From: Aurantiochytrium sp. KH105
Taxonomy: Eukaryota > Sar > Bigyra > Thraustochytrida > Thraustochytriidae
Direction: 5' to 3'
NCBI GenBank assembly: GCA_003116975.1
Contig: BGKB01000103.1
Coordinates: 186,001-250,000, forward strand
Length of the DNA stretch: 64,000 bases
A program made the translations under genes and the position numbers. Shown here in pieces: positions 29,301-59,000 of this stretch; position 1 is the stretch's first letter, and each line of letters begins with the position of its first letter. The notes below the pieces were generated by a model. It did not search any database. It was not told the DNA's origin and was given only the letters and a program-made list of their open reading frames with translations.

Positions 29301-32300
29301 TCTTGTTTCTGCCGCATAATCTGCACAGCTTTAACGTACGCCTGAATCGCTTCCTTGACGCTGGCTCCCGAGAGACCGAGCTCTGCGTCCGGATCCGCCT
29401 CCGGTTCATTCGTGAACTTGGATAGCACACTTGCGCCATCGTTGAGCCGCGTACGGCGGCTAAAGCGGGATGATTTGCTCACTACAGAGCGCGGGCTTCG
29501 CTGCGTGCGCTGCGTACGGGTCCGACGCGTTCCAAGACCCGGAACGGGTGCCAAGAGCGCAAGACCCTCTGATTCTGGCGTTAAAAATTGCAAAAGAGCG
29601 CGCTTCCCAAGCGCCTGCGCAGTCTCGAGAGCTTCTGCGGACGTGCTCTTGTCGCGTGTCAGATTTTGCTGCATCCGTGCAACCTCTAGCTCCATTGTTT
29701 TCAGTTGTTCAAGGCGTGATTCACATGCAGCCAGACTCGACTCGAGAGCAGACTTCTCCGCAAGATACGCTTGTTCGGCGTCCGAAAGCGGAGCTTCAGT
29801 CGCGCTGCTCGGGGCTTTACGAGCAGGTTTGCGGCGCTTCTTCTTGCGCTGTGATTCCTGCCAGCTTGCCACACAAGCCTCGAGAGCACCGCGCACCCGT
29901 TGTGCTTCCGCATCTGCCGCCTGAGAGAGGTTTGACTGTGCCAGAACCACGAGGGGAAGCACCTGGCTCACGAGGGCTTCCGTGTTGTCAACAGCTGCAA
30001 CAAAGCGGCGTCCAAGCACGATGAGTTGCGACCAGCGCTTGAGATGACAAAGAACCTGCACTGCAAAACCGATCATCCGAGACGCCCACCATGCGTCGCA
30101 AACAAATCGCTGTGACCGTGCGCTCGAGCCACGTCTCTTTCGAGCCTGAGCCCCGCAGTTCTCGAGCATTTCCACAATGGCGACGCCGGCGCGGAAGATA
30201 GGACGCCAATCGTAGCAGCCGGCCTCAACCTTGGGCGCAAGAGAAGGCCCATCAGTGTCCTCGTTGCCGTCTTGGTCTCCGGACGCGCCCGTGCGACCTG
30301 ACTTTTCCAGATGGTCGCTCTCAACGCCATCCTCGTTCTGCCCACTTTCCGCACCTGTGCTACGATTGGCCTCCTCTTGTCTTGCAAGCTGTAATTTTGT
30401 ACGAAGTGCAGGAACGAGCGCAGCTTCGCACACGGCGTCTTCAGTGAATTGCGTTGGCGTGATCCAGGCGAATTCAAGGACATTCCACATCAATTTGCCA
30501 ATACCTTCAACCTGGCGCCACGCCTGTCCCCATCTGGCTCGGGACATGGCTCGCGCGAGATAATGAAGTAAGCGAGGCGAATCCTCGTAGGCCTCCTTAA
30601 AAGCAGCCTTGGCTGCATCGTGCGCCTTGGTCAGTGCTTCGGCCTCGGCACTCATCTTGGAATGCCGAGCATCTACGCCGTCGCCAAGACTTGAGCCTCC
30701 TTCCTCGTCTTCCTCTTCGTCTTCTTCGCCAAGCTCATCGCCTTCAGAGAGATTGTTGGGGAGAGGACGTAGACGTGGGACTGTGGGCGGGACCGCGCCG
30801 CTTGCGCTATCCTTGATGGGCAACCAGCGTAAATCCGTACGAGGACCTTCGTCAAGAACCCCTTCCACGAGACGTCCCTCCCCGGGATCCTCGAAATTGA
30901 TTTTGGCATCCTTGGCGTGGATGAGACTCCAATCCACTGCGAGCCATTTCTTGTACAGGCAAAGCGCCCGAATTCGCTCAAACTCTGCAAGCATGGCAAG
31001 CTGCGCTTTTGCATCTTGCGGCGCTGTGGATCCCGTAGTTTGGGCGGCCGCGGCCAGCAACCGCGCGCGTCTCTCGAGGATGTCGAGTTGACTTCTCAAA
31101 GCATCGATCTCCGTCTTTGCTGCTTCGCGCTCTGCCTCGCGAGCCACCTTCTGCTCTTCGTCTTCCGCGTTCATTTCGTCCTCGTCCTTGTTCTCTTTTG
31201 TCGATGCTTCGTCGCTTGACTCCTTTTCACCATTCTCGTCATGACCTTCACCATCGCCATTCTCTACGTCGTCTCGCGCGCTATTAACAACGCCTGCATT
31301 GGCGATTGCGAGAAGCTCTTCCATTCTGTTCTGGAGAATCTCGATGTCTCCGATGCCAAGCGGGTCCGGTGTTGTCGAAAGTGGTGGCGCGAGCGCGGCC
31401 GTGGCCTCAATGGGGGCAACGTTTTCGTAGCGCTCTTCCCAGAGCACGTCGCGTACAAAAGGTCGAGCATGGGCAGCACACGCTGGATCGAGGTCCCAGA
31501 GCACGTGTTGAGCTTCGTCTGCCCAGTTCGCAGTGTCGCACCCACTGGCACCGAGACTTGCTCTGCAGACCATTGCCATGAGCTGAAGGTAGTCAAAGGT
31601 TTCTTCAGCGCCAGCCACAGCGAGAAGCCCCCAGGCATGACGCAAGAGAGCCCCTTTCTTTTCTTTGCTTGCAGCAGCTCGAGCCCGCGAAAGACAGACG
31701 AGAACCTGCTCGTCAATACCTAAAGTATGACTTTCCGTGGCCGAGTGGTCTGTAGATTCGTCGCCTGCGCCTGTCCCCTCGTCAGATGATGCGGGCTCCG
31801 TGAAGGAATGATTGTTTCGAATGGCTACGTGAATCTTTGCAAGCGTCTTAAGGGGTGCCATGGATGTGTCGATGAGCTCCATTCGCATTTTGGTAGCCAA
31901 TGCATGTTGGACTTGGTGTTTTTCGAGCATCGTGCGCGTCACGTGCCAAGCCTCCTCGGGCATGTCCTCAAGTTCATCTTCTTCTTGCGGAGCATTCTCA
32001 CTGTCATCTTCTGCGCCATAATCCGTCTCGTCTCGCGCGTCCGTCGTCAAGAGGGCAACATGTGCCAAAGAGTCCTTTTGGCTTGCTGAGGTGTATCGGA
32101 GAATTTGGTAAGAACAGAAAGCGTACATGGTGCAGATGTCTTCTGTCCACATGAGCTGAGGAATCTGGCGCATTGCAAATTGAGCTGCAAGCACCGCGCG
32201 AAGGGCCCCCGCAAGCGGGCGTTGCAACGCGAACAATTCTTGCAGGTCATTATACATTCTGCTGCACGTCTGCAGAATCAGCGTGTTGTCTTGCAAGCCG

Positions 32301-35300
32301 CACGTCGCGTGAAGAGCAAGAGCGAGAAGCTGAATGTGCCGACACAGCCCGGCGCTTTGGTCCACCGCGCTTCGCGTCACGTCAAATCTCACGAGGGAGC
32401 TGTACGAGGCTGAAGTCTTCCACAAGGTTCGCGGGTCTTTGTCGAGTCTGTGCAGGAGAAGAGTCGCTTTCACAAAGGCCTGCAGTGAAGGTTGCGGCGC
32501 GGCAACGAGCTCTTCGCGCACAAGCCAAAAGTCGTCGACCGGCTCGCGCATCCAGAGGGGCCCAGGACGCTCCGAAGCAACAAAGGCACTTACAACGTAT
32601 GCACAGGCCGCCCTGCACGCCTGTTTGCAGACATTGACCTGGTCCTTGATGGACTTGTGAAGAGCTTGGAAATCCCGCGCGGAGCCCGTCACAACAGAAC
32701 GGATACTCTCAAAGGCAAGAACTGCCATCACTCCGTAACACTCGATGAGGGCCAAGGGGCAAAGTGTCTGCACTTCCATCGTGGTTGGGCCAATGCCGCC
32801 ACCTAGAATTTGGTTTTTTTCGTCAAAAGCCGCGGCGGCGAAAACGTACGTCTCATTGGGCACAAGGTCAGTCACAAACACAGAAAAAGGACGCTCGGGG
32901 TCTTGCTTGCACGCCATAAATGGAACGCCCATGTTGACGAGATCTGTATTGGTCGTGCTCACTTCGGTGCCCGACCCAGCCGTCTTGCCGTAGACAACGT
33001 AGTGGTGAGGAGCGAGCTTGCCTGGCTTGACAGGAGGGCAGACCTTGATCTCGATCGAAGATGCCGTTCTAGATACTATCCTGAGACTCGGCACGGGGGA
33101 TTCCTTTTCCTCAATTACGCTCTCCCCTTCAGCGTGTTCCTCGCTCGTCGCCTGCTGCAAAAGGGACTCTTCCTGAGCAACCGCCTCCGCAAGGAGCTTG
33201 CCAGCCGTCGTGAGAATTTTTGCTTTCTCCCCGTAGTCATCTTGCTCCCGACGAGAGAGGGAGACCGCGCAAAGCAGCGCCCTCGCATACTTGTTGTGGC
33301 GAAATTCCGCAGAAAGGCGCTGCTCTGTGGATCGCAACTTTGCACCAATTGACGATGCGACTCGAGAATGTGCAACTTCTTCGTGATACGCGAGATCGAA
33401 TTCAATCTCAAAAAGAAGACAAAGCATGTCGCAGTGAATCGATGCAAGCGAAGCGAGCGTTCCGGCAGAAGGGCGCCCGCGAAGAGCTTTTTCCTTGGCA
33501 GTCAACGAAGCCATGCCGTCGGCAGCACAAAGTTCCCCGCGCTGAACATCGAGCGACTGAAGGCCTCGGCGCAAGATTTGCAATGCTGACCTTGAGTCTT
33601 CAACGTCGCGCGTATGCAAAAAAGTCGCATAGCGAACTGCGATTATAGCTCGCAAGAGCGCATCTTCTACGTCGCACGTGAGCACGACAAAGTGCGCGCA
33701 GTCGAGAACTTCCGTCGTGACTTCAATGAGCGTCGGGTTGAGCGGCGTATCGGGCGAGCAGCTGGACACAGTGTCGAGCATGGCTGTGCAAAATGGCGAC
33801 CATAGGAAAAGAGCAGCGTCGTGCAAGAGGTCAGGGTCGGCGCAGCGCAGCGTTGATGCGTGAGCCCGGAGTGTACGAGCCAGCACACGAATCGAATTAA
33901 CATAAATCAGCCTTCCTTCGACCTCGGCCATTTCGCCAGAGACGAGAAGGGCATCTGCGGTCTCGTGAAAGCCCAGGCTCGTCAAAAGCTCAGTGCCATT
34001 GTGGCCACTTGCATCGGAGTCGCCCTCACCGCGAAGCTGCATGCTCGTAAGCGCGATGATGCGCAAGGTCTCGAGCTTGGCAGCCTGAATCTGACAAAGA
34101 GAGCAGGATACGTCTTTGCGTGCGAGCGCATGCAAAAGAAGTGCTGCGCCTGAAAAGCATCCGAACTTAATCAAGGATGCGGCGAGGCTCACACAGGCCT
34201 GGGCAGGGAGCGATGCGGAAGGTGAAGAAGAAGATGGCGCACCTGAACTGGATGAAAGAGCATCCTTGATCTCGTCGAGGTTTTCTTTGCCTCGAGCCTT
34301 AGTTTTTTCATCATCATCAACTTCATCATCATCGTCATCACCTCTTGCGCTCTCCGAATTATCAGCTGGGATCGATACTTTCGCAGGGAGCACTTGATCG
34401 AGACAAATGCCAAGCGCGCGCTCGACATATGGCAGAACGAAAACATATCCACTTAAGTCTGCTGCTCCCGCATCATGGACAGCCGAGGCGTTCGCGCGCA
34501 GCGGGCGTGTCCCTGAGATGGCGAGCATACTCGCGAGGCTTTCAAGACGTTCTGCAGCGGGCGGTCCCTGGAGCCATACGCTGTCCGTCTCAGTGTCAGC
34601 AGCAAGGTCAATGCCGAGTGCGTTACGCAGAATGTCGGGAACTTGGGTCTCAGCCTCGTGCGCATCCTGGACTGACATTAGATCAAACTTTGCCGTGGCT
34701 GTGGTCACAAGGCGCTGCGCGTGGTCTAACGCTCTGAGAATATCCTCGGGAACGGGTTCGGCTTGCATTTCGTCGGCTCTCAATTCGTCGAGCTGCGCTC
34801 CAAAACGGTGTGCCACGTCCTTGGCAGCTTTCACATTTCCAAGTGACTCGTAAATGGTCCAAGCCAAGACGTAAAGTTTCTCACGAAGAGGCAAAAATTT
34901 GGTCGCGCAAAGAGGAAGCTGGTCTTCGACCGAGAGAATTGCAAAGAGAGCGTCTTTGCGGACTTTTTCAGCAAAGCCGAGAACGACCATGGGCTCACAT
35001 ATTGCAAGACAGAGCTGTGCAGCATTATGAGTGAGCCAGTACAATTCTTCGTGCTTGGCTTGCGTCTGAATTTCCTGGTGTACTTCGCGAAGAAAGTCGA
35101 GAGCTTTGGCAGCAATGTCTTGCACGTGGTTTTCTTGGGCAAGAGGAAGTTTTGGCGAAGCTTTCCCAAAAGCAAAGCCTTTTTCGAGGTATTGCGCCCA
35201 GGTTTTGGCTGCCAAAAGCTTGGACTGGGCTCGATCGCGCCACCTTTGGGTGAGAACCGCAGCGGGCTCGAAGCCAACGGAGACAGCAGCTTTGAATTCC

Positions 35301-35548
35301 CCAAGAGCAGCCAACTTTTTGCCCAGATCCATAAGGTTTGTGGCAAGAACAGCGCGACTTTTGGGGCGAACAACATCTCGCTGCGCGTGCTGGACGGCAA
35401 CTTCGATGTCAGCGACAGCACACGCCCTCGCGTTCGCAGCCTCAGCCCCTGCAGTGCATGTAAAGTTATCTATGTTGCGAATGCGCTCGACTTCTTCCTT
35501 GACAGTATGCTGAAAGCGCTCCAGCGCCGAGAGGCCAGCGCCTGCCAT
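26330..35548 (-). CDS. CFAP54: CFAP54-like axonemal central-pair protein
   Basis: 3072 residues in one open frame, close to the roughly 3100 of human CFAP54. The start at 35548 (MAGAGLSALERFQ) is preferred over one at 35809, which adds an unlikely extension. The body is almost wholly helical and TPR-like, with repeated A-x-x-L pairs. At about 818-915 there is an FN3-like segment: RIVSRTASSIEIKV, then HYVVYGKTAG, then LVPNETYVFAAAAFD and ILGGGIGPTT. A fibronectin-like block of this kind is what I recall for CFAP54, a C1d projection protein of the flagellar central pair. Acidic linkers lie near + positions 31190-31290 and 30670-30750, and a coiled coil precedes the first (about 31040-31140). 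CFAP46 is the main alternative. The gene implies a motile-flagellum stage. Confidence 0.7.
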   Translation of the reverse strand: MAGAGLSALERFQHTVKEEVERIRNIDNFTCTAGAEAANARACAVADIEVAVQHAQRDVVRPKSRAVLATNLMDLGKKLAALGEFKAAVSVGFEPAAVLTQRWRDRAQSKLLAAKTWAQYLEKGFAFGKASPKLPLAQENHVQDIAAKALDFLREVHQEIQTQAKHEELYWLTHNAAQLCLAICEPMVVLGFAEKVRKDALFAILSVEDQLPLCATKFLPLREKLYVLAWTIYESLGNVKAAKDVAHRFGAQLDELRADEMQAEPVPEDILRALDHAQRLVTTATAKFDLMSVQDAHEAETQVPDILRNALGIDLAADTETDSVWLQGPPAAERLESLASMLAISGTRPLRANASAVHDAGAADLSGYVFVLPYVERALGICLDQVLPAKVSIPADNSESARGDDDDDEVDDDEKTKARGKENLDEIKDALSSSSGAPSSSSPSASLPAQACVSLAASLIKFGCFSGAALLLHALARKDVSCSLCQIQAAKLETLRIIALTSMQLRGEGDSDASGHNGTELLTSLGFHETADALLVSGEMAEVEGRLIYVNSIRVLARTLRAHASTLRCADPDLLHDAALFLWSPFCTAMLDTVSSCSPDTPLNPTLIEVTTEVLDCAHFVVLTCDVEDALLRAIIAVRYATFLHTRDVEDSRSALQILRRGLQSLDVQRGELCAADGMASLTAKEKALRGRPSAGTLASLASIHCDMLCLLFEIEFDLAYHEEVAHSRVASSIGAKLRSTEQRLSAEFRHNKYARALLCAVSLSRREQDDYGEKAKILTTAGKLLAEAVAQEESLLQQATSEEHAEGESVIEEKESPVPSLRIVSRTASSIEIKVCPPVKPGKLAPHHYVVYGKTAGSGTEVSTTNTDLVNMGVPFMACKQDPERPFSVFVTDLVPNETYVFAAAAFDEKNQILGGGIGPTTMEVQTLCPLALIECYGVMAVLAFESIRSVVTGSARDFQALHKSIKDQVNVCKQACRAACAYVVSAFVASERPGPLWMREPVDDFWLVREELVAAPQPSLQAFVKATLLLHRLDKDPRTLWKTSASYSSLVRFDVTRSAVDQSAGLCRHIQLLALALHATCGLQDNTLILQTCSRMYNDLQELFALQRPLAGALRAVLAAQFAMRQIPQLMWTEDICTMYAFCSYQILRYTSASQKDSLAHVALLTTDARDETDYGAEDDSENAPQEEDELEDMPEEAWHVTRTMLEKHQVQHALATKMRMELIDTSMAPLKTLAKIHVAIRNNHSFTEPASSDEGTGAGDESTDHSATESHTLGIDEQVLVCLSRARAAASKEKKGALLRHAWGLLAVAGAEETFDYLQLMAMVCRASLGASGCDTANWADEAQHVLWDLDPACAAHARPFVRDVLWEERYENVAPIEATAALAPPLSTTPDPLGIGDIEILQNRMEELLAIANAGVVNSARDDVENGDGEGHDENGEKESSDEASTKENKDEDEMNAEDEEQKVAREAEREAAKTEIDALRSQLDILERRARLLAAAAQTTGSTAPQDAKAQLAMLAEFERIRALCLYKKWLAVDWSLIHAKDAKINFEDPGEGRLVEGVLDEGPRTDLRWLPIKDSASGAVPPTVPRLRPLPNNLSEGDELGEEDEEEDEEGGSSLGDGVDARHSKMSAEAEALTKAHDAAKAAFKEAYEDSPRLLHYLARAMSRARWGQAWRQVEGIGKLMWNVLEFAWITPTQFTEDAVCEAALVPALRTKLQLARQEEANRSTGAESGQNEDGVESDHLEKSGRTGASGDQDGNEDTDGPSLAPKVEAGCYDWRPIFRAGVAIVEMLENCGAQARKRRGSSARSQRFVCDAWWASRMIGFAVQVLCHLKRWSQLIVLGRRFVAAVDNTEALVSQVLPLVVLAQSNLSQAADAEAQRVRGALEACVASWQESQRKKKRRKPARKAPSSATEAPLSDAEQAYLAEKSALESSLAACESRLEQLKTMELEVARMQQNLTRDKSTSAEALETAQALGKRALLQFLTPESEGLALLAPVPGLGTRRTRTQRTQRSPRSVVSKSSRFSRRTRLNDGASVLSKFTNEPEADPDAELGLSGASVKEAIQAYVKAVQIMRQKQETTLLAQALLELGNLHAAQGGVAGWAAARTAWTDAVDAVLQDVNSVSSWERILESAAKTPTSVSKWTPKENLASCAELTMCQSLLARFGARACVLAATSCAKLAQFSFTGDVDKTMKHLRLGGWLFACLLSASIEHPVRTCDYASYQVRELMPGLDRALFNFQAVRKTAILEALGHIARELSRSSRQADNLLSLPIASLLEYAGRQWCLSASVVLESHLIRSTALTQLGLVRESGLALRAVLLGANFPVDESELLRSSAELHQASSVADEPQDADEVLAILQMQREAHGVQFALTSNEAPWSRANRDGLRSLVTLGPETEPIPWVSKALGPRLMEILRVCRARLVCRVLSFWPPSTRVESEGEEDASLSRNELLEATLKLLDPQLPEVFAQELTGKETEPDADGAETLVSSRDSMLQIAKASSAEVLTCAADVLLAQGKARTTIRWASICLEALASSRAVGDTASNDVEADSPRLNIHAWLHLRFSLLRAAELLGSPESVLAASHSLDHDCEVNAESDIRRAAIVCSAEALARLGSLQEAARVAHTAIIASAEVRDLTYVKAIVIAKQAHAAWIRCSNQQASEVESGESDDIEEASIRAAYTSAQAALGAIGFFEPKKTSPRTKQTLYTDIIAAYAIVARYHAEEERSCGILQDALDTVAVSLIPLPWLKSEAMLLNALLQESTVEAEAEVENALVACAELACEAQGATLDLGRRACTRLGAAAGASQWLRAAECLGSGFARLGAQLSEFARGASSVADTEEASLRAREMDPFFADTFAQEVGLQGLICRLQREIFGRSVGLDLERHERIRALYAYLSAADDSFRESFMVAATVLPVRDDASPEDDGGEISVPDGLVAAQWVRDKAVDAKNVDLILLRPGRAVPIRKSMPFASVREVRDDLSHAKRMNDSSLLGAAIRQAMVLLGVGSEDEDGVSDDELNGISESNQEELATWLERLFDVRSGIFIEDAGEEFRSILHQVREDDKSAATQ

Positions 35549-35899
35549 TATGGCTTTAGGTTGCGAGTTCACCTTTCTTTCGTTGTGCTCGTCCGAAGTG
35601 AGCAAGGGAGTTTGGTCAACGTGGAGTCGCGGTGAAGTTGAGACAGGTTGCTTGGTTCTTGGTCGTCCGAGGTCTCCTTTTTTACGCTCGTTCGCCCAGA
35701 GTTTATCGTCAAAGGGTTGCAAAATGCGGTCCTTTCGATCGGCCGGCACCTGCCGTGCGCAGGAGAGACGCCGGCGCGCCAGCGGGCAGGCTGATAGCTT
35801 GTTTGTCACAAGTCACTCTTGCTGGCGGAGAGGATTAACAGTAAAAACACTCTTTTTTGCTCAGGCAGTTCTTCTTGCTAGCTTGACTTGCTTGGACTA

Positions 35900-36460: not shown

Positions 36461-38554
36461 ATGGCCGAGATGGTGACCGGGACGCCGTCGCCGCCGCCGG
36501 CAAGCCCCGGACCCCGGAAACCGCACAGACGAGCTCGGAGACGACCGCGAGGACGGCCACGCGGGGCGGGGACGCCGCGCGCTGGCCGCAGCAGAAAAGG
36601 CGTGGCATGGAAGAGCCTTGTGGCGTGCGCTTTGGGAGTCTTTGTGAGCGCTGTTTTCCCTCTTCGCACCGGGGCCCTTCGCGTGTGCACGAGCTGCGAC
36701 GCGGATGTGTCCACGGACTACCTGAGCGGTGTCGTCCACCCGCTGCTGACTGATTTCTTTTACAACTACGACGGGATTGAATTCGCACGCAAGGTCGGTG
36801 GCGCCGTGCGGTTGCTATTTCACGACTCTGCAACGTACTCGGCAACTGCAGATAATGGCGAGCCGAATGGATGTCTGGAGATGGACGATCCCGGCAACGG
36901 TGGGCTTGGACCTGTCACAGCGGCGCTGTCCGCAATATATGCATCAATGGAAAAACGTGACGATTTCTCACGAGCTGATTTTTGGCAGTACGCCGGTCTC
37001 GTGGCAACAGATGTTGGTTTTGCGCGCACTATTGCGGACGGGGAAATCACCTCGACTGTGCTGGAGTCGTACAATGGAACAGCGACGACAAACTTTCGAT
37101 TTGGAAGGATCGACACGACCAATTGCAACGCTTCAGGTTTCTGGAACGCCTCGACCGAGAGCGTAGAGTTCGATCGTCTACCAATCGCTAACGGCGACTT
37201 CGCCCATATTTTTGGAATTTTTGTGACGCGCATGGGCATGAGTCTGCGAGAACTTGTGGCAATGGTGGGCGCTCACACACTGGGTGCGGCGACGCCTGAT
37301 GGATCTGGCAACGACGGCATTTGGGTGGAGCGCAATGACGTTCTCGACAACCAGTTTTACATCGATTTGCTTGATATGGATTGGGAGCGAGAAGTGACAT
37401 ATTTCGGCGTCGACGACTCTTCCTCGACCTTTCAGTGGGTGTCAGATACGGACGATGGCGTGGAGCTCATGATGTTGAACACGGATATATCCCTTGTTTA
37501 CCAAGTCGACCCCGCAACCGCCGCTATTACAGACACATGCACGGAGTCTCTTGAATGCGCTTACAACCTCGCCGACGACGAGCTCTCGTCTCGGCTCTTT
37601 GTTGAGGAGTTTGCAGGTGGCGCGCGCGGCACGACGCGAAATTCCACGACCAAGCTTGCGGGTATGGTCGCCTGGTACAAGACGCTTGTGCCCGCATTCA
37701 TTCACATGGGCGAGCTTGGCTATGAGGACTCCTTGCTCGAGCCTTGCGTCGTGGCCGCAGAATGCACAGGCGGGGTCGTCGATAACTCCTCGTATGTCCA
37801 CACGCAATTGACGATCCTCATTGACGACACGTATCGGTCATCGTACCACAGCACGTTGGCGTTCCGTTCCGTGATCATTACGAACCTTGCCGAAGCTCTC
37901 GACATGAATTCATCGCGAATCTCGATCGACGGAGTTCGTTCTGGAAGCGTCATTGTGCAGGCAAGTCTGTACCTGGATCCAATCGATGACGCGCGGCAGA
38001 TTTTGGTCTTGCGCGACGACGATACCACCCTTCGTATATTGCAAGGAGCCTTTGCTACAGAGATCAGTGCTGGCGTCTTGGGGGACATTTTGCTAGTGCG
38101 TAGCGAGCGAATTTCGGCCCCAAATTCGGCGAGGACGAGTGCCTCGGCGATTCCTTCCGAGGTCACAGAGGACCTGCGTGGGCCGTTTCAGGCGCCATCC
38201 ATTAGCGTTACCAACACACTTATCGGCAGCACGATGACTGGGGTTTTCATCGTGCTTGTCACTTCTGTATATTTCTGCTGTGTCTCTTCGGACGAGGTTG
38301 ACCTGGAGAAGCAATTTGCCGCACCGCGTCGTCAACGTGTTGAAGCGCGTTTGGGCACGCTTGCGCCCAGCGACTTTTCAAATGATATCTACTCGCCTGA
38401 TTTTTACATGCAAAGTGAGGATGACGAGGACGAGGACGAAGAGTATTCGCGCTCTCGATCGCGAAAGAGCCGTCGGCCAAAGGGTAAAGGACGGAGCCAA
38501 CATCGTCATCGAGATAGAGAAAAGGATCATCGGACGCGCGAAACGCAACACTAG
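36461..38554 (+). CDS. Membrane-anchored plant-type heme peroxidase
   Basis: 697 residues. The haem-peroxidase domain (about 85-400) has the distal site RLLFHDSATY, with Arg117 and His121, and the proximal site MVGAHTLG, with His272. Distal calcium-ligand-like residues (NGEPNGCLE) and an FRFGRID element sit between them. A highly basic N-terminus (about 18-47) precedes a hydrophobic segment at 51-68, which is either a signal peptide or an anchor. A second hydrophobic helix at about 586-607 is followed by an acidic then arginine/serine-rich tail. Between domain and helix, about 450-560 resembles a SEA-like membrane-proximal fold (SRISIDGVRSGSVIVQASL). The layout suggests a secretory or surface type I protein reducing peroxide, with substrate unknown. 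It is neither a typical ascorbate peroxidase nor a classical class III enzyme. A second ATG (36470) is possible. Confidence 0.82.
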   Translation: MAEMVTGTPSPPPASPGPRKPHRRARRRPRGRPRGAGTPRAGRSRKGVAWKSLVACALGVFVSAVFPLRTGALRVCTSCDADVSTDYLSGVVHPLLTDFFYNYDGIEFARKVGGAVRLLFHDSATYSATADNGEPNGCLEMDDPGNGGLGPVTAALSAIYASMEKRDDFSRADFWQYAGLVATDVGFARTIADGEITSTVLESYNGTATTNFRFGRIDTTNCNASGFWNASTESVEFDRLPIANGDFAHIFGIFVTRMGMSLRELVAMVGAHTLGAATPDGSGNDGIWVERNDVLDNQFYIDLLDMDWEREVTYFGVDDSSSTFQWVSDTDDGVELMMLNTDISLVYQVDPATAAITDTCTESLECAYNLADDELSSRLFVEEFAGGARGTTRNSTTKLAGMVAWYKTLVPAFIHMGELGYEDSLLEPCVVAAECTGGVVDNSSYVHTQLTILIDDTYRSSYHSTLAFRSVIITNLAEALDMNSSRISIDGVRSGSVIVQASLYLDPIDDARQILVLRDDDTTLRILQGAFATEISAGVLGDILLVRSERISAPNSARTSASAIPSEVTEDLRGPFQAPSISVTNTLIGSTMTGVFIVLVTSVYFCCVSSDEVDLEKQFAAPRRQRVEARLGTLAPSDFSNDIYSPDFYMQSEDDEDEDEEYSRSRSRKSRRPKGKGRSQHRHRDREKDHRTRETQH

Positions 38555-39089
38555 AAGGCTCATAAGGCCTCGGATTTGGCACTAGAGCTACGTCTCGTAT
38601 TACTGAGAATATTTTGTATCACATGCTTGCTGCATGCAAGCTGCTCCATCTTTACTTGTAGTCGGCCTCGAGGTCTTTCTTATCTTTACCATTACTTTCT
38701 CCGGTGATTGGTGAAGTCTAAAGCTAGCCTGATTTTGTCAGGATCTTGTCATTTACGAATGTCATGGACCACACCTCTCGCGTACGCGTGTATTACGATC
38801 TAACTCTGTCAGGGGCCCATACTAAAAAAGCATATTTTTATCCTTTAAAAGTTTGACTAAGCGAAATTGTTACGTCGGAGTTAGCTCTGCAACATAAACT
38901 TATCCTAATTTTGCAAAAGGAGTTAGTTGCTGACAGCGCTGGTCCTTGGTTTCACGGTTAGCGATCGCGAGCAGACCTATTTCGCCGGCAGCGGGTGAAC
39001 TTGCTACACCCCAAGTCTCAGGCAAGGAGACGCAGTAGCGGCTACTCAAGGGTTTTTGGCGCTCGGCCCGTCCCTGAGAGCGGCTGACG
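38555..39089. other. Intergenic region left of the piggyBac-YqaJ gene
   Basis: About 535 bases, with an AT-rich part (38820-38910). I looked here for a terminal inverted repeat matching the defective element at 49990 (CCCGATRATTTG) and found none. A GTTTGACTAAG string at 38849 recalls the GTTTGACTTAG of that element's palindrome but is not itself palindromic. No gene is supported. Confidence 0.5.
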
Positions 39090-42000
39090 ATGGTTAAGTC
39101 TCGCCGGGACGGCAAGCGCAGCTTGTCGCGCGACTCAACATCGTCGAGCGAACTTAACTACCACGTTCAAGCGCCTCAACGACGACGTCTCGTCTTACGC
39201 GTTGATACCTCGTCTGCGGCCCCCGAGACGCTGTCTCGTGCAGAGACGCGGTCTCCTGCAATGAGGCACGTTCTTCACGATTCGCAGGCATCTCGAGAGT
39301 ACGTGCCATCCGTCTCTTCTCAAGAAGATCAGCGCGTTCTTCATGCTGCGCCTCGAGCAGAATCGCAAGGAGCTTCCGATTCGCAGGCAACTCGCGAGTA
39401 CGTGCAGTCAGCCTCTGCTCCGGAACACTTTGACTCGCAGGCCACACAAGACGTATCTACCGCAACCGAGCCTCGCTGCGCGAATCTGCCCCTCAGGAAC
39501 CGATCGCAGCGTGCAACCTCTTCTGGCAAGGGGAAAACCAAGCAATGCAATCACTGCTTTCGCACTGACCATGCACGGAAGTCCCACAACCTGTGCCCCT
39601 TCAATCCGATCAACGCTCCCGCCTCCGACGGAGGTGGACGCGGACGCGGACGTGGACGTGGACGTGGACGTGGACGTGGACGTGGACGTGGACGTGGACG
39701 TGGACGTGGACGCGGTGTCTCTTCTCAACGCAGCATGGGAAACAAATCAGTGCACTGGACCAGAATCTCAGATCCAGACTCGTATTCGCTCATGTTTGCG
39801 GACGAAGCAAAGGACTCGCTTTTCCTGAATTCCTTGCGTAACTACTGCTATGACATCGTGGGGAATATGTGTATCGAGCTGGAAAAGGAGTTTCCAGAGC
39901 TCGATAACGCTGAGAATGTGGAACCTTTCCATGTGTTTTGCATTCTCGCGAGCGAGTTCATCTCTGAGCTCGCAGACTTCACAGATAGACGACTTCATCT
40001 TGCGAGAAAGGGGTCCTTGGACAAAACGGAAGTCTACCAGGTCATCGGGGCGTTCTTGTATTGTCAACTGGTTGGATTGAACCTTAAGGTGAGCATGGAA
40101 ATGTTCGATGCATATCTGAAAAGAACTTCTAGTGGTTGGTCCGGACCTGAACTCGATCGAGTGAAGCTCCTGCTCAAACACTTCAGCGCTGTTCACCCTA
40201 GACTGATTGAAAGCCAGCTCACGAGGCAGACGCCAAATTCTCCTCGGACGAAAAGACCAACGTCTCCAATCTTTGAAAAAACGACAGACGTCGTCGAGCA
40301 CATGCGGGATTTTGAGGAAAATCTTTTCGTTAAGACGCGCCAAATTGCTACATCGAAGCATCAGCATGTTGTCGTTGATGACAAGCTGGTCGGGACACGT
40401 TCATCAGGCGTTCAACGCCGCAAACAGAGTAATCACAAAGCAGGAAAATACGGCCCCAAAAGTGCCACAGTTGCAGATGCGCTATTGCGGATTATGCTCG
40501 CCACGCAGCACTGCGGTGAAGAGAACTACACGCAGCCTCAAGCGGTGAATGCTCTTCTTAAAGAGTGCGACACACTTGACAATACGCCTGGTTTGATGCG
40601 CGGTCGAGGCGTCACAGCAGACCGAGGCTATTGTAAAGCGATGATGTGGTCCAGCGTTTTGAGCAAAGGAGCATGGTTTTTGATGGCTTCAAACTCTGCC
40701 TCAGACCCGTTTCAATCTCTTGGTGACGAGCTCAAAAATATTCAGAGGCGGGAACGGACACGCAAGATAGATGGTCCGAAACGGGACACGGTTGAAAGTG
40801 CTGCTCAACGCGCAGCAAACGTTGACTTGACGTTCGATTCAGACTTTGTTGTGGACGACAACCCGTGCATGGGTCGAGAAATTTTCACTGCAAGAGGAAA
40901 ACTTCGTACCGATGATGATGTTGAGGAAGAGGTCCAAGCAATTGTATTTCGGGACTATCAAGGTCGCGCTTCGGAAGATACAACGCGAGTGATTCGTTTT
41001 GTGCACGGAGGCGGCGCGCCTTTTTCGGACCGTCTTGCAAATACAATATGCATGGAGAAGCTTCGAGTTCCTCGATCGACTCTCAGAGGATCCCAAGTAC
41101 TCTTTTTCCCCGTCACTACTAAGTCCTCTTCCCTCGCGGATATGGAGCGACGCCTCAAGCAGACTATCCTTCCCCTCACATGCTGGCAGCGCTGCGCAGA
41201 CTGGTTTGTGCTCCGTCTCTTTACGATCACCGCCACGACCAGTGGAGCGATAATCAGCCAGGATGAGAATGTCATCCGATATTTACAAAAAGAGGACTTG
41301 GAAGATCCGGACATTTCTTTGCCTGCGGGCTTTACGGATGCTGACAGCACCACAGACAATGCAGGAACAACACGAATTGATGACTTCGACGACGACTTCG
41401 ACGATGACGTAGACGACGGGGGCGCGCGTGCCGCTGCTATCGCCGATGAAGACGATGAGAGCGATCTCGACACGACTTGCTCTGGACCCGGAAGTCAGGC
41501 GGGCACCGCATCTGAAAACCCTGACAATGAAGCCTACTCTGCTGTCGCAAATGCTGTCGCGGATGCTGACGAAATGGAACGGGCAAAATGCGAGCTGATG
41601 AAGTCTTGGTTCTTCACACGAGGCTCTGTCACAAAGGCAATGAAAAGTGGGACGATAAACGAAAAGAACCTGTTCAAGGCTCTCCAGCGGCAGTCGTGGT
41701 GCATTGAACTCTATGATGTCGGCCTCTTGGCCAATGCGAAGCACCCATACATCACCGCGTCGTGCGACGGGATTGGCCTCATTCGCCTTCCTTGTGAAGC
41801 AAACTCGATTTCGCCCGTTTCAGTGCTAGCTGCAATTGAGTTCAAGACGAGGTCTGGTGTCGAAACGCTGGACCGGGCTCGCAAAGTCTCAACAGAGCAC
41901 GGAACATACTTTCAGTGCACAGTGCAGGATGAAGTCTGGTGGGATGCTGTTCCCAAAGCAAACCGTGCTCAAGTATTGCACCAAGCTGTTGTTCTGGACA

Positions 42001-43004
42001 CAGACTACGTTCTGTTTGTGGAAGGCTCAACTATGGAAATCATTTACTCGTGCTTAGTGTGTGTTCCAGCGACGGTTCGAAGTTCATACCTAACCGCCTT
42101 GCTTCGACACAAGAGGTTGCTCGAATGGGCCTACGAAGCACCAAGCGATGGGACATCACTTCCAAAACCACCCCTTGAGCTGTTCTCAGTGGTAGACTGC
42201 TCCATCATTGCCTCCCATATGCGTCTGTGGCGCGCGGTTCGGACTAAAGTTATCGCTGATGGTAAGCCGCTTCCTCCCATTCGAATTTTCAAGTGTCTCG
42301 CGCAATGCGCGTACAATTATATGAAGGGCGGGTCCGATAGACATACGCAATTCGTGGCTGCTATCACAAACACGGGTTCCTTCAAGTTGAATTTCGAGCA
42401 GAAGATCTGCTTACGTGGCGTCCTTCAACTGGCTGCAAACTCATTCACCCTGTATCGCGTGTTTCGCGCCTGCACCACACCAGACTTTACGTTCAAGTTT
42501 CCATACAACTCGATTCTCGAGTTTCGAACTGCATGCAACATGATCTCGGACCTTAGGACGTTCTGTCTCAATCTTTCATGCTCGCTTGCAGAGCCCGGCT
42601 TCTCGCCTACGTCTCCGAGATCATGCAGTCAATCAGACCAGATTTCCCCAACTTCATCACATTCAAAAGACGGCCATTCTACCCAAGCGCAGGCTGATAA
42701 GATTGTGAGTAGTTGCAAATGGAAGCACGTAGGAAAGATCCGGGAGTTCTTCAACAAAGGAAGTGGCCAACAGGTCAGACTCGACAAGTCATTGAATCAC
42801 AACTCAATCTCGCTGGGTAAAAGACCTTCTGGCCAACTCATACAGCGAATGTGCGCATTGTGCGGTGACAACGACAAGCGAGCAAGCAGAATGTGCACAA
42901 CGTGCAAGGTTCCACTTCACATCCACGTGTCAGCCGCTGGTGGACCTCACTCTTGCCATGATCAGTGGCATTCCAATGAGTTCTGCATTTCTCACCATAA
43001 ATAA
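39090..43004 (+). CDS. piggyBac-type DDE transposase with embedded YqaJ-like nuclease and C-terminal zinc finger
   Basis: 1304 residues, uninterrupted. In order: a CNHCFRTDHARKSHNLC zinc-knuckle-like motif (about 153-169); an RG-repeat tract (182-207); a DDE_Tnp_1_7-like core with VVVDDKLVG (Asp about 429), VTADRGY (Asp about 509, spacing 80 versus 78 in piggyBac) and a candidate third Asp in AIVFRDYQG (about 620). A nuclease-like block at about 690-985 has CWQRCADWFVLRLFTITATT, as in the YqaJ N-terminus, then SCDGIGLI, the ExK motif AIEFKTR and a Q-x3-Q-like AQVLHQAVVLDTDYVLFV. After it the piggyBac tail resumes with YNYMKGGSDRHTQF (about 1073-1086), which recalls MGGVDxxDQ, and a helix NSFTLYRVF. 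A Cys/His finger (about 1253-1298: CALC, CTTC, LH, CHDQWH) ends the protein. Activity and domestication state are unknown. Confidence 0.78.
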   Translation: MVKSRRDGKRSLSRDSTSSSELNYHVQAPQRRRLVLRVDTSSAAPETLSRAETRSPAMRHVLHDSQASREYVPSVSSQEDQRVLHAAPRAESQGASDSQATREYVQSASAPEHFDSQATQDVSTATEPRCANLPLRNRSQRATSSGKGKTKQCNHCFRTDHARKSHNLCPFNPINAPASDGGGRGRGRGRGRGRGRGRGRGRGRGRGRGVSSQRSMGNKSVHWTRISDPDSYSLMFADEAKDSLFLNSLRNYCYDIVGNMCIELEKEFPELDNAENVEPFHVFCILASEFISELADFTDRRLHLARKGSLDKTEVYQVIGAFLYCQLVGLNLKVSMEMFDAYLKRTSSGWSGPELDRVKLLLKHFSAVHPRLIESQLTRQTPNSPRTKRPTSPIFEKTTDVVEHMRDFEENLFVKTRQIATSKHQHVVVDDKLVGTRSSGVQRRKQSNHKAGKYGPKSATVADALLRIMLATQHCGEENYTQPQAVNALLKECDTLDNTPGLMRGRGVTADRGYCKAMMWSSVLSKGAWFLMASNSASDPFQSLGDELKNIQRRERTRKIDGPKRDTVESAAQRAANVDLTFDSDFVVDDNPCMGREIFTARGKLRTDDDVEEEVQAIVFRDYQGRASEDTTRVIRFVHGGGAPFSDRLANTICMEKLRVPRSTLRGSQVLFFPVTTKSSSLADMERRLKQTILPLTCWQRCADWFVLRLFTITATTSGAIISQDENVIRYLQKEDLEDPDISLPAGFTDADSTTDNAGTTRIDDFDDDFDDDVDDGGARAAAIADEDDESDLDTTCSGPGSQAGTASENPDNEAYSAVANAVADADEMERAKCELMKSWFFTRGSVTKAMKSGTINEKNLFKALQRQSWCIELYDVGLLANAKHPYITASCDGIGLIRLPCEANSISPVSVLAAIEFKTRSGVETLDRARKVSTEHGTYFQCTVQDEVWWDAVPKANRAQVLHQAVVLDTDYVLFVEGSTMEIIYSCLVCVPATVRSSYLTALLRHKRLLEWAYEAPSDGTSLPKPPLELFSVVDCSIIASHMRLWRAVRTKVIADGKPLPPIRIFKCLAQCAYNYMKGGSDRHTQFVAAITNTGSFKLNFEQKICLRGVLQLAANSFTLYRVFRACTTPDFTFKFPYNSILEFRTACNMISDLRTFCLNLSCSLAEPGFSPTSPRSCSQSDQISPTSSHSKDGHSTQAQADKIVSSCKWKHVGKIREFFNKGSGQQVRLDKSLNHNSISLGKRPSGQLIQRMCALCGDNDKRASRMCTTCKVPLHIHVSAAGGPHSCHDQWHSNEFCISHHK
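39634..39715. repeat. Coding GACGTG hexamer repeat (RG tract)
   Basis: About 13 units of GGACGY in the reading frame encode a run of glycine-arginine dipeptides in the N-terminal third of the transposase-like protein. The unit is nearly homogeneous, so the tract is likely to be length-variable. Confidence 0.9.
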
Positions 43005-43182
43005 GCAGATAACAAAAAAGAAAAGAAAGAAAGAAAAAAAGCCTAACCACCGTTTTTGACCAAGAGCTCGAGAGGCCGCGAGATCATTGCAGCAGACAAG
43101 TATTTCTGGTGCGCGAACGAACGACCGACCAACCGTGGCGCATCTATCAAGACGCGACGGGGCGCTCGTGTGATCGGGCGCA

Positions 43183-46100
43183 ATGCGTAGACTGGTTACT
43201 GACAACGCGCGGCGGCCAGGCCGAGCAGACCAGACGGCGGCTAGGGATTCGAGCATCATGCGTGCAGGGCCGGGACGCAAACCATCAGCTCCAAGTGCGA
43301 CGTCTACGACAAAGACGTCGAGCTCGAGCAGACGCAGAGGACGCGACCTGGTGGAGAAAGCTGCCGCGCTTCAGACACGCTCGAAAAGAGTCCACGCGCC
43401 TCAATCTCGAGCGCTCTTGGTCGGGGGATCTAGCAGAAGCGAGTTCCAGGCGCTCTTTGGCAAGCGTGTCACGCCAGGGGCCCACGCTTCGGGGCCACTG
43501 GCAGCCTCGGCAAGCGATGTGGACCTACGCGTTGTGTTTCTGGTCGATGTATGGAGCCTTACAAACTGGGGCCCCGATGCTCTCTTTGAATCGCTCTGCC
43601 TCTTGCAAGAGGGTCATCAACTACGCTCGCGCAATCTCGTTTGGGGATACAGACTTTATGATGCACGGCAAAGCACGGGATGCACGCCTCGTGAGCTTGA
43701 TCGTGCGCTGCGTCAACCCGTGCGCTCCACGCAATTCTTTCGTTCCTGGAACGAGGATCAGCGCTCTAAACTCTTGGTGACCCTGCGCAAGGACGCCTCT
43801 CGCGTAAAGGACGCGAGCGTCGAGCGCACAGCTACCACCAGTGCGCAAGCTCTTGGCTCAAGCTCACCGTCTTATCTTTCGATCTTCCAGAGCTCTGTCG
43901 CAGAGATGCTGGTCGATTTCAACTGGGACGACACCGAGTCTCAGCTCCCTGGCCAAGACATTGCGAGCTTTCTATACGTTGTCGCGCCGACCCCTGTCCA
44001 ATGCCCAACGGCGTACCGCGAATTTACCATTCGACCGAATGCTCTCGACTTCTTGCAAAAGTTTCGCCAGTCACGCGCTGTTCGACTTGCCTGGGTGGAT
44101 ACGAGCTGCTCTGGCACAAACAGCAAAGGCGACGAGTCTTGTCCGTCGTGCGCCGAACCTGCTGCGCATGACTCCGCCGCGAACACCAAGCTCGACGCAA
44201 AAGACGGAACCGCGGAAGAGTTGTTTCGCCGGCGAGCATTTGAGCTGACACTGCGTCGCGTAGAAGGGTGCGTCTTCCCTTTGAGCGCTCCGGCGGCAGC
44301 CGTTTCTCTCACAGGGATACCGAATGTCGGTCTCGATGCGTTCCTACGGGTGCAGTGGGCACTTCCGGCGCGTGTGAAACGCCGAAGTCGTCCCGTTTCG
44401 CCCCAACTTTCAACAACAGCCCCTTCGACATTGCCACCGAGTGTAGCCATCCCAGGCGATCTCAGTGGCTGGGAAGGCCCGCTGGTCTTGCCGGAAACGG
44501 TGGGTTCCATTGATGTAAAGTTCCTTGGGGAGGGAAAGATTTGCGCACCAGGTACTTGCGGGGTCCGGCTCAATGGAGCGTTGTTCTTTTCGACGGGCCC
44601 CGGTGGCATTTCGTGCGTCAACGAGAAAAACAAGAACGATTCCGAAGGCCACCTCGATGCAGTGGGTCAATTCGATTCTTGCTCTGGGCCTCTTTGTGGC
44701 GCAGACTACAATGGACGAGCCTGGCTCCTCGGAAGCGAGAATCCGACATTTGCACGTCTCTTGACGGGTCTTCGCGCCTCTGGTAAGTCTTTGCTCTGCG
44801 CAGGACCGCTTGGGTTGCATATTGTTGTTGACCCCTTACAAAGTGGCGATCTTGCGCTTGCGAGTCTTTTGACAAGCCGCGAGGCTTCTCTCGTGAACGA
44901 GCTGCTCGATCTTGCCGAACAGCCATCACTCGGAGAGAGCCTGGATTGGATCTCACGCACGAACGTCGAGACGTACAACATTTTGCAGGATGGCTTGACT
45001 CTCGGGCGTCTGCCGGCGGCACGTTCACTTCCGGGCCCATTGACTTCCACGGGTGGCGCAGCGCCGTCACTTTTTGACTTTCGACGGAACTTTGCAGACT
45101 TTATGGCCGCCCCATCACCTCAGAAAATAAGGCCTGTTGTCAAACGAGTAGACACAGTCGCAGCTGCGACAACAATGGCTGCACCCGCAAGCGCTCTCCT
45201 GAGCTCCTCTTACCACCAGGGACAACAGAGTCAATGCGAGGAGAACATGACTGAAAACAGAGCACCTGTGGAAAAAGATGTGGACACGCATGAGGGCGCA
45301 GCGTCATCGTTTTGCCCAGGTGTGGTCCAGCTGTTGACTCGATATGCCAAACGCAAGCCAAAGAAGGACCCGCTTCCCAAAGCGAGACTGAAGCAGATTT
45401 GCAAACATCTTTCCGAGGCGCGCTTTGATTCAGGGACACGCTTCGCTGTCAACATGGAAGAAGTTATTCTTGGCCCCTTTCAAGAAAAGCTTCCCGCTAC
45501 CATTGCGCAACTTCGCGCTTACTTCGATTTGACTGACGAGGATGGCTTTGGGACCGACAGCAATGACGACGAAGTAGCAGAGGTGACGAGTCCGGAGAAC
45601 GCGGGCTCAGCCGAGCAAGGTCCGTCTTGCGCCATTGCCGCTGATGGTCGAGGCGCAGCCAAGACTGTAGTCGAATCAGCGGAAGCTTTGCAGATCCAGC
45701 AACAAGGAAGCAAGCTTCTCCCAAGGACCACGAGTGATGTCGCCAACCCTTTTAAAGTTAACTTGGTGTCCCAGAGAAATCTGGTGAGCGCAGGCAAGCT
45801 CACTGTGCAGAAGCGAAGGTTTGCGCTGACCCACTTTTCCGGGGCGATGAGTAACCCTGCTCGTCTTTTAAAGCAGCGACGCGTCCCACGCGTGGCCAAA
45901 CCAGTTCCAATGCTCGCCCCGGACTTTGTCATGGCCATGACAACGGTAGAGTCTTCCAGACAAGTAGCCAAATCGACACCTCGTCGACGTCGGCCTCAGC
46001 AGCGCGTCCTGAGTCAGGAAAGCGAACTCGGCGCTCGCGCAACAAGATCGATCGAGGCGACCCCTGATGGGAAGCGCGGCGAAAAGCGGAGTCGGGGCCC

Positions 46101-46488
46101 CGCTTTCGAAGATAATGCCATTGTTGGCGCCACACCATGCAAGCGTAATGCACGCGACACTGCTATTGAGGCGAGTCCTGGTCTCGTTGTGAGTGAGAAC
46201 GTGTTGCTCGGCGGTATTGTGGGCGCAACGCCGAGTAAGTCTGCGTTTGAGAGCCCGCCAGAGAAGAAGACGCCGCCACGGCGATCCAAGAAACGTCTCT
46301 TTGGATCTCCGGGCGTCATTGAGGCGTCGCCGGTGCCCTCGCGCAGAGCTGTGTCGGAGGCCTTGTCTCCCGCGTCATCAGGATCGTTCGCTTCGCCTGC
46401 AAAATCACGCGCGGGCGCGCATCAGTCGCCCGCGAAAGATATGTCGTACTCGACACCGACCAAGCGGGTGAGGCAAATTTCGTATTGA
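43183..46488 (+). CDS. Treslin/TICRR-like candidate with vWA-like N-terminus and CDK-site tail
   Basis: 1101 residues from 43183; an ATG at 43258 is also possible. Residues about 110-360 begin with DLRVVFLVDVWSLTNW and continue with NLVWGYRLYDARQS, an arrangement that recalls the degenerate von Willebrand A-like domain of Treslin (a hydrophobic strand ending in a D, followed by a WGYRFFDS-like motif). A middle segment has VQLLTRYAKRKP and LPKARLKQICKHLSE. The last 200 residues are disordered and packed with S/T-P sites, several in the full CDK form: TPCKR, TPSK, TPPR, SPAK twice and TPTKR. Treslin and yeast Sld3 are CDK-regulated replication initiators. This identification is from pattern and architecture only. 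The gene starts just 179 bases after the transposase-like gene on the same strand. Confidence 0.5.
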   Translation: MRRLVTDNARRPGRADQTAARDSSIMRAGPGRKPSAPSATSTTKTSSSSRRRGRDLVEKAAALQTRSKRVHAPQSRALLVGGSSRSEFQALFGKRVTPGAHASGPLAASASDVDLRVVFLVDVWSLTNWGPDALFESLCLLQEGHQLRSRNLVWGYRLYDARQSTGCTPRELDRALRQPVRSTQFFRSWNEDQRSKLLVTLRKDASRVKDASVERTATTSAQALGSSSPSYLSIFQSSVAEMLVDFNWDDTESQLPGQDIASFLYVVAPTPVQCPTAYREFTIRPNALDFLQKFRQSRAVRLAWVDTSCSGTNSKGDESCPSCAEPAAHDSAANTKLDAKDGTAEELFRRRAFELTLRRVEGCVFPLSAPAAAVSLTGIPNVGLDAFLRVQWALPARVKRRSRPVSPQLSTTAPSTLPPSVAIPGDLSGWEGPLVLPETVGSIDVKFLGEGKICAPGTCGVRLNGALFFSTGPGGISCVNEKNKNDSEGHLDAVGQFDSCSGPLCGADYNGRAWLLGSENPTFARLLTGLRASGKSLLCAGPLGLHIVVDPLQSGDLALASLLTSREASLVNELLDLAEQPSLGESLDWISRTNVETYNILQDGLTLGRLPAARSLPGPLTSTGGAAPSLFDFRRNFADFMAAPSPQKIRPVVKRVDTVAAATTMAAPASALLSSSYHQGQQSQCEENMTENRAPVEKDVDTHEGAASSFCPGVVQLLTRYAKRKPKKDPLPKARLKQICKHLSEARFDSGTRFAVNMEEVILGPFQEKLPATIAQLRAYFDLTDEDGFGTDSNDDEVAEVTSPENAGSAEQGPSCAIAADGRGAAKTVVESAEALQIQQQGSKLLPRTTSDVANPFKVNLVSQRNLVSAGKLTVQKRRFALTHFSGAMSNPARLLKQRRVPRVAKPVPMLAPDFVMAMTTVESSRQVAKSTPRRRRPQQRVLSQESELGARATRSIEATPDGKRGEKRSRGPAFEDNAIVGATPCKRNARDTAIEASPGLVVSENVLLGGIVGATPSKSAFESPPEKKTPPRRSKKRLFGSPGVIEASPVPSRRAVSEALSPASSGSFASPAKSRAGAHQSPAKDMSYSTPTKRVRQISY

Positions 46489-57185: not shown

Positions 57186-57260
57186 GGTCCTATAGCTCAG
57201 CTTGGTTAGAGCGTGGAGCTAATAACTCCAAGGTCGGGGGTTCGACCCCCCCTGGGACTA
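57186..57260 (+). tRNA. tRNA-Ile (anticodon AAU), copy 1
   Basis: 75 bases. Acceptor GGTCCTA pairs with TGGGACT (first pair G-U), D stem GCTC/GAGC, anticodon stem TGGAG/CTCCA around loop CTAATAA with anticodon AAT, T stem GGGGG/CCCCC with loop TTCGACC, and discriminator A. The first base, A34, is expected to become inosine. A T15 or longer tract follows after TCCC, a pol III terminator. Box A- and box B-like sequences (TAGCTCAGCTTGG and GGTTCGACCCC) are internal. Confidence 0.95.
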
Positions 57261-58493: not shown

Positions 58494-58568
58494 GGTCCTA
58501 TAGCTCAGCTTGGTTAGAGCGTGGAGCTAATAACTCCAAGGTCGGGGGTTCGACCCCCCCTGGGACTA
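58494..58568 (+). tRNA. tRNA-Ile (anticodon AAU), copy 2
   Basis: All 75 bases are identical to copy 1. It is preceded by GTCAACTT and followed by a T-rich terminator (TTTTCTTTTTTTTCTC). First member of the tight tandem array. Confidence 0.95.
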
Positions 58569-58659
58569 CAGTTCTATTTTCTTTTTTTTCTCTTTTTTTT
58601 GTCGTTGTGGTCGAGCGCTCGGCCTCCATTCGCGCCCTTGCACGCCTCGCATTCAACCT

Positions 58660-58734
58660 GGTCCTATAGCTCAGCTTGGTTAGAGCGTGGAGCTAATAAC
58701 TCCAAGGTCGGGGGTTCGACCCCCCCTGGGACTA
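58660..58734 (+). tRNA. tRNA-Ile (anticodon AAU), copy 3
   Basis: Identical to copy 1. It is preceded by TTCAACCT. T-rich termination sequence follows (CGTTTCTTTTTG). Start-to-start distance to copy 2 is 166 bases. Confidence 0.95.
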
Positions 58735-58795
58735 TCGTTTCTTTTTGTTTCCCTATTCTCTGTAATTTTTTTCTTTGTGATCAGAATCAAAAATT

Positions 58796-58803
58796 GATAT
58801 ATA
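58796..58803 (+). promoter_or_regulatory. TATA-like element upstream of tRNA-Ile copy 4
   Basis: GATATATAAT at about 58795-58804, 30-37 bases before the tRNA start. Confidence 0.35.
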
Positions 58804-58832
58804 ATGCTCATGGGATCACTTGCCTTCAACTT

Positions 58833-58907
58833 GGTCCTATAGCTCAGCTTGGTTAGAGCGTGGAGCTAATAACTCCAAGGTCGGGGGTTCGACCCCCCCT
58901 GGGACTA
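58833..58907 (+). tRNA. tRNA-Ile (anticodon AAU), copy 4
   Basis: Identical to copy 1. It is preceded by TTCAACTT. A TTATTTTTTT terminator follows. Start-to-start distance to copy 3 is 173 bases. Confidence 0.95.
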
Positions 58908-59000
58908 CTGTTATTTTTTTCCCTTCATCTACTTTTTTTTATGTAGCGTCGCGTGCCATAGGGCTTCTATAATGTCCATGTGCGGAGGCCGCTCCAACAA

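Follow-up and report, generated by a model that had tools for sequence, protein, structure and literature searches.

The piggyBac transposase is prized for seamless excision. In the Trichoplusia ni protein, the catalytic triad is described as D268, D346 and D447, with an insertion domain at residues 372–433 and G444-G445 preceding D447 (PMC7351741, PMC2533014). In the DDE/D transposases discussed in PMC7351741, insertion domains are found at a single topological position, following strand five of the RNase H core. Dada and Kolobok are precedents for nuclease-bearing transposons. Dada, from Laccaria bicolor and Ectocarpus siliculosus, belongs to another superfamily and is described with a DEDDy DnaQ-like 3′–5′ exonuclease and 6–7 bp duplications in small-RNA genes; its authors propose that the exonucleases process cleaved 3′ ends (PMC3706591). 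KolobokE combines a PD-(D/E)XK lambda-exonuclease-like nuclease with a place in a transposon superfamily that has 4-bp duplications (PMC9587614), and ISL2EU is reported as a DDE transposon carrying a YqaJ exonuclease, there as a separate open reading frame (ORF) beside a PIF/Harbinger-related core with an A|AT|T target (PMC4482050). Here we describe an ORF in a 64,000-nucleotide stretch of a 76-Mb thraustochytrid assembly (contig C103:186001-250000; the window). We read it, with a probability of about 0.72, as an immobilised, intact copy of a transposon family, encoding a putative piggyBac-type transposase with a YqaJ/RecE-like PD-(D/E)XK nuclease inside its core.

The reading frame at 39090-43004 (+) runs through 1304 residues with zero internal stops. 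A first-pass annotation of this DNA had proposed one composite protein with piggyBac signatures, a YqaJ-type nuclease block, a piggyBac tail and a C-terminal finger, and each of these parts was recovered. VVVDDKLVG lies at residue 427 and VTADRGY at 508 (D430 and D511 are 81 residues apart), followed by WFVLRLFTITATT at 705, AIEFKTR at 915, QVLHQ at 961, YNYMKGGSDRHTQ at 1075 and the finger starting at C1255. The family has the DNA-binding region, the D268 and D346 blocks and YNxxKGGxD with D447 in the same order as the Trichoplusia ni protein (PDB 6x67, 6x68), and shares with piggyBac an NSF..Y tail, a Cys-rich domain at the C terminus, termini beginning with CCC and target duplications of 4 bp. 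The insect protein differs in having 594 amino acids (aa) and no nuclease, in its TTAA rather than ATAT target, and in the distance between its second and third catalytic aspartates, 101 residues from D346 to D447 compared with 572 from D511 to D1083 here. We know of no N-terminal CCHC finger or Arg-Gly repeat in piggyBac.

This architecture is not confined to one locus. The ORF has at least 58 scored matching stretches in the assembly. Twenty related regions were taken from the genome; 13 held an uninterrupted ORF of >1000 aa, and the seven without one (L033, L035, L037, L040, L049, L050 and L051) did not enter the protein alignment. With the window protein this gave 14 proteins of 1110 to 1344 aa, 20–90% identical to it. 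Many loci are present twice with matching flanks, indicating that the assembly holds two versions, either haplotypes or subgenomes. The 14 intact ORFs, on which all conservation counts are based, stem from 10 loci and are therefore not all independent. The second version of the window locus, L032, matches it over both flanks at 93–95%. Among the seven loci found in two versions, both ORFs are intact in four (window/L032, L042/L045, L043/L046 and L044/L047), and one version is broken in three (L034/L037, L036/L035 and L039/L040). The domain order is identical across all 14 ORFs, down to 20% identity, and in none of them is the nuclease a separate neighbouring gene. The four cysteines C1255, C1258, C1269 and C1272 of the C-terminal domain are present in every member, and the CCHC finger (C153, C156, H161, C169) in 13 in one alignment (A2); a different alignment set the second-clade motifs apart.

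For the window protein alone, the sole Pfam match above cut-off was DDE_Tnp_1 (residues 422-558, expectation value (E) 2.4e-5), and neither the single protein nor its pieces matched piggyBac in the PDB. Five of the 14 members matched the related Pfam family DDE_Tnp_1_7 with E no higher than 1, the best at 9.2e-5. When the 14-member profile was compared with all PDB sequences, piggyBac 6x67 was the only significant match (E 3.5e-5; next 0.51), with profile columns 172–331 corresponding to piggyBac 138–294 and columns 913–1061 to 437–586, in the correct order and flanking the nuclease. Profile–profile comparison by hhalign with piggyBac plus piggyBat gave E 1.6e-4 over the first part. Taken alone against piggyBac, the front and tail parts reached 6e-5 and 2e-5, and the nuclease block found no match (E 0.72). 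With the nuclease columns removed (keeping 221–645 and 1050–1170), a single local alignment of 314 columns covered piggyBac 170–486 at E 2.9e-6; a second spliced construct gave 320 columns at a looser setting, and a global run, in which the alignment spans by construction, gave E 2e-7. Single-sequence comparisons agreed weakly: the score was equalled by none of 150 shuffles for two pieces and by 1 and 4 of 150 for two others.

In these alignments D1083, within KGGSD, falls on piggyBac D447. Aspartate is kept at D430 in 13, at D511 in 11 and at D1083 in 11 of the 14 ORFs, and the triad (DDD) is complete in the window protein and in 8/14 overall; second-clade copies mostly read KQGVDGLD, close to the GGVDxxD of piggyBac. 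D590 is nearly invariant, yet aligned with no piggyBac catalytic residue. The first-pass annotation had placed a candidate third aspartate near residue 620, a column that proved unconserved. Because D1083 lies after the nuclease, the nuclease sits inside the DDD core and splits it. Its internal position was thus correctly anticipated, whereas its placement between a finished DDE core and the tail was not. By alignment, the nuclease (residues 695–1020) follows the second catalytic residue and precedes the third, at, or adjoining, the predicted insertion-domain position of the RNase H core.

The insert resembles the YqaJ/RecE/lambda exonuclease family (PF09588, PHROG 434) in its W..R..T start and in its E, S-x-D, ExK and Q-helix, represented by E858, D893, E917, K919 and Q965; we take these residues to have the roles of their counterparts in that family. 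Unlike members of the family, this nuclease forms part of a transposase and is interrupted by an acidic linker (746–835). The middle piece of the window protein matched PHROG_434 (RecE-like exonuclease) at E 4.9e-5, compared with 0.0044 for the whole protein. Across the family, with hits accepted at E ≤ 1, nine of the 14 proteins matched PHROG RecE-like profiles (best E 2.3e-6) and four matched phrog_149, an exonuclease (best 0.00033); the best other PHROG reached 0.043. Pfam YqaJ was matched by three members (best 0.0019), and the single NCBIfam match of the block was TIGR03033, of the lambda-exonuclease family (E 0.039). E858 is kept in 10, D893 in 13, E917 in 10, K919 in 11 and Q965 in all 14 ORFs. 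The window protein retains all five, and it is one of four members with all seven DDD and E-D-E-K residues. The host also has an ordinary standalone YqaJ gene, at C11 and C50. It is not closely related to the insert, and as a recent donor it found no support, its best alignment covering 21 columns at E about 0.03 with some 130 residues compared.

The family has been mobile, with CCC...GGG ends and a 4-bp duplication that is mostly ATAT. Seven copies with internal deletions, each about 1.58 kb long (L012–L017 and L021) and 96–100% identical, lie at different sites with termini CCCTATCTCAGAG...CTCTGAGATAGGG, each between identical four flanking bases (ATAT in six, ATAG in one). L033 has the same ends between ATAT copies, and L038, a member of another subfamily with an intact ORF, has the ends CCCCATCCTTTT...AAAAGGATGGGG between ATAT copies. 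CCC...GGG termini and a 4-bp direct duplication were found in 9/9 copies read at both ends (8 ATAT, 1 ATAG). Two unfilled counterparts of short copies were read, one with a single ATAT and the other with ACAT; for a third short copy the counterpart candidate is a 77% similar stretch. Allowing ≤2 mismatches, the genome contains 39 occurrences of the terminal motif and 3 of a reversed control. Terminal repeats were not found around the second-clade copies L041–L047. Four more pairs of the motif lie about 520–530 bp apart. Three of these have ATAT at either end (C35, C52 and C270), the flanks of the fourth (C3) are unmatched (TTTT and ATAA), and these variant pairs suggest a second, shorter non-autonomous family.

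The window copy itself probably can no longer jump and still encodes an intact protein. Whereas the left termini of the seven short copies read ATAT-CCCTATCTCAGAG in six and ATAG-CCC in one, the terminal CCC of the window copy is lost. About 275 bp of the right end, including the terminal repeat, is missing, and L032 continues alongside the window through the right homology breakpoint. TTAA-flanked ends were not found at this copy, and there is no TTAA between those at 40558 and 45752. With the right end lost and the left end decayed, the copy should not be mobile. Its comparison with L032 gave dN 0.046 and dS 0.095 (nonsynonymous and synonymous divergence), a ratio of 0.48 (0.27 in the nuclease core and 0.46 in the DDE region); the count followed Nei-Gojobori in its simple form and took no account of transition bias. 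To judge from these substitution patterns, the reading frame has been kept under purifying selection, perhaps for a cellular use. Loss of the transposon ends and purifying selection after immobilisation, by which a domesticated gene may be recognised, were both found here. Domestication, which the first-pass annotation had raised, is hence plausible for the window copy; it does not hold for the family, because complete elements and near-identical short copies lie at different sites. A host role is in turn opposed by the lack of E858 and K919 in L032 and by a dN/dS ratio far above those of the neighbouring genes (0.08 and 0.22 over the 507 and 636 codons covered by L032), and the copies compared had been selected for intactness. 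The lost residues and the raised ratio, with the eroded ends and the broken version at three of the seven two-version loci, would fit a dying, functionless relic whose open frame is a leftover, the composite enzyme acting only in complete members. We consider such a relic possible, if on the doubtful side: no stop was observed in either version where neutral simulation expected 13.3 (0/400 runs had zero stops), the ratio differs from 1 (two-sided binomial test, p 1.7e-6), and the three DDD and four nuclease residues are retained in the window copy. Six other comparisons of intact copies (L041-L044, L041-L047, L044-L047, L038-L039, L042-L045 and L043-L046) gave comparable dN/dS ratios of 0.28 to 0.53, so that constraint of this degree appears usual in the intact part of the family and is no distinguishing mark of the window copy.

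Besides the substitutions in L032 (E858A and K919E), several results weigh against a piggyBac-type transposase with an inserted nuclease. In the Pfam searches the window protein, including a spliced construct, did not match DDE_Tnp_1_7. The two stretches aligned with piggyBac in the PDB search were weak singly (E 2.8 and 0.071), their significance belonging to the sum. At default settings, a continuous local alignment was obtained with only one of four spliced constructs, which covered three splice points; the remaining alignments ended after 125–200 columns. Single-sequence structure predictions were unusable, with a mean pLDDT (predicted local distance difference test) of 36 and 34. The target duplication is ATAT, not TTAA; non-TTAA duplications are reported from seven bee species in PMC10140906, where the authors suspect mutation. 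For the nuclease, the linker-less block covered profile columns 1–146 of 150 of Pfam YqaJ at E 0.0028, below cut-off (18.4 bits vs 22) and near the unrelated Phage_connect_1 (0.0051), and lambda exonuclease aligned over a 22-residue motif only, the W..R..IT start (E 0.18). The unrelated SgrT was likewise matched by three of the 14 members (best 0.0041), nearly equalling YqaJ, so that Pfam by itself would not decide. Finally, E858, D893, E917 and K919 occur together in just 7/14 intact ORFs, which, with the losses in L032, indicates that the activity of the nuclease may not be needed here. The inserted block could accordingly descend from a YqaJ nuclease and have taken on a structural or DNA-binding role, mostly without catalytic activity. 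We regard this as rather unlikely, since the DDD triad is lost about equally often, so that loss looks like general decay, and D893 and Q965 are almost always kept. Membership in the Kolobok superfamily, as a KolobokE element, would account for the nuclease class and the duplication length given in PMC9587614, but is highly improbable. The termini here are CCC...GGG and not 5′-RR...YY-3′, the nuclease lies inside the core and not downstream of the transposase domain, and the core profile matches piggyBac, Kolobok being set apart by its description and not by sequence. Taken one by one, the profile scores of the window protein are weak, which might still point to a YqaJ gene that landed by chance in one transposase, or to spurious motifs. 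This explanation is refuted by the domain order shared among the paralogues, and we give it practically no weight.

If the ORF encodes a composite transposase–nuclease of piggyBac type, its reaction would be expected to follow piggyBac-like steps: after nicking at the 3′ ends, the 4-nt flank would form a hairpin at the end of the transposon; this hairpin would then be opened and the element joined in a staggered manner to a 4-bp target. As ATAT is palindromic like TTAA, seamless repair could still take place. At the insertion-domain position, the nuclease would lie beside the channel holding the hairpin and the target DNA. Held there by the cleaved ends, it might trim 5′ strands, most likely at the donor break, and so steer recombinational repair; such trimming would be the most economical role for it, and resection may in this way accompany transposition, as the first-pass annotation had supposed. 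More tentative, and on balance unlikely, is the broader proposal that a lineage with a 5′–3′ resecting nuclease in its core carries out cutting, joining and end resection within a single transpososome and couples each excision to recombinational donor repair, the window copy having in addition been retained by its host for programmed cutting and resection of DNA.

Two features appear to be new: a YqaJ-type nuclease within the core of a piggyBac-type transposase, and a piggyBac-like lineage whose target duplication is ATAT. In a collection of 5.8 billion proteins, the only relative was a 2180-aa protein of Hondaea fermentalgiana (P0001) named "cytochrome c peroxidase, mitochondrial", and the protein database searches returned nothing beyond it. 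It corresponds to window positions 36461–46488, merges parts of the upstream peroxidase gene, the ORF and a downstream ORF, and has gaps that skip conserved transposase residues; it is likely a gene-model error in which three adjacent genes were fused. The window protein differs from it at five residues within 446–459. At three of these (R449, D454 and D459) P0001 agrees with L032, so that the window copy may carry a derived sequence in this segment. Viral contigs, searched also with a piggyBac alignment, and prokaryote contigs held no relatives, the tools being weak for eukaryotes; a phage tblastn search returned only two records, both at E 1. Literature searches, limited to open-licence papers, found no description of a piggyBac with an internal nuclease. 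Public gene models can conceal such proteins, as P0001, filed as a cytochrome c peroxidase, illustrates. The insertion-domain place, or a neighbouring loop, appears here to be occupied by a second enzyme. If a piggyBac relative has a resecting nuclease next to its active site, it would provide a clear test of how transposons steer break repair and, with Dada and Kolobok, would suggest repeated recruitment of nucleases by different transposases.

Table 1. Features of the composite ORF and its flanks, in window coordinates.
Feature	Position	Strand	Basis or remark
Decayed left element end, upstream of ORF	38798..39089	+	Aligns with left ends of L012-L017 and L021
Putative composite transposase-nuclease ORF, 1304 aa	39090..43004	+	Backed by 13 further full-length ORFs
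N-terminal CCHC finger, residues 153-169	39546..39596	+	Conserved in alignment A2
Arg-Gly repeat, GGACGT x 13.8	39630..39712	+	Known from window copy
Region like N-terminal part of piggyBac DNA-binding and dimerisation domain, residues 221-426	39750..40367	+	Family profile, hhalign
Predicted first catalytic Asp block, D430 at 40377, KYGPK motif (piggyBac D268 region)	40368..40460	+	
Predicted second catalytic Asp block VTADRGY, D511 at 40620 (= piggyBac D346)	40611..40631	+	
YqaJ/RecE-like nuclease insert, residues 695-1020	41172..42149	+	PHROG_434 and Pfam YqaJ profile matches
piggyBac tail with predicted third catalytic Asp D1083 (42336) in YNYMKGGSD	42276..42569	+	Family profile
C-terminal Cys-rich finger, residues 1255-1294	42852..42971	+	Cys conservation
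End of homology to the element	43005..43011	+	7 bases past stop codon

Among the related loci of the same genome, the two versions L034 and L037 (G000:C84 and C158) are separated by an inversion of ~0.7 kb within the transposase ORF, and L037 has no full ORF. The most divergent member, L048 (G000:C296:27000-35000), has an open frame of 1213 aa in which the first and third residues of the DDD triad are missing, as are E858, E917 and K919. A second piggyBac-type gene pair (C193:25715-26917 and C261:24287-25489; open frames of about 1545 aa) carries a DDE_Tnp_1_7 domain end to end in about 400 codons without a nuclease insertion, and four additional partial matches were found in the same genome search. 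Elsewhere in the window, an uninterrupted ORF of 3159 aa at 26330-35809 (−) matches CFAP54_N, of a cilia and flagella protein (E 2.9e-9), an ORF at 11416-14559 (−) combines an AMP-binding enzyme, a carrier domain and ankyrin repeats, and five tRNA-Ile (AAT) genes lie at 57186-59076 (+), four of which form a tight tandem array.

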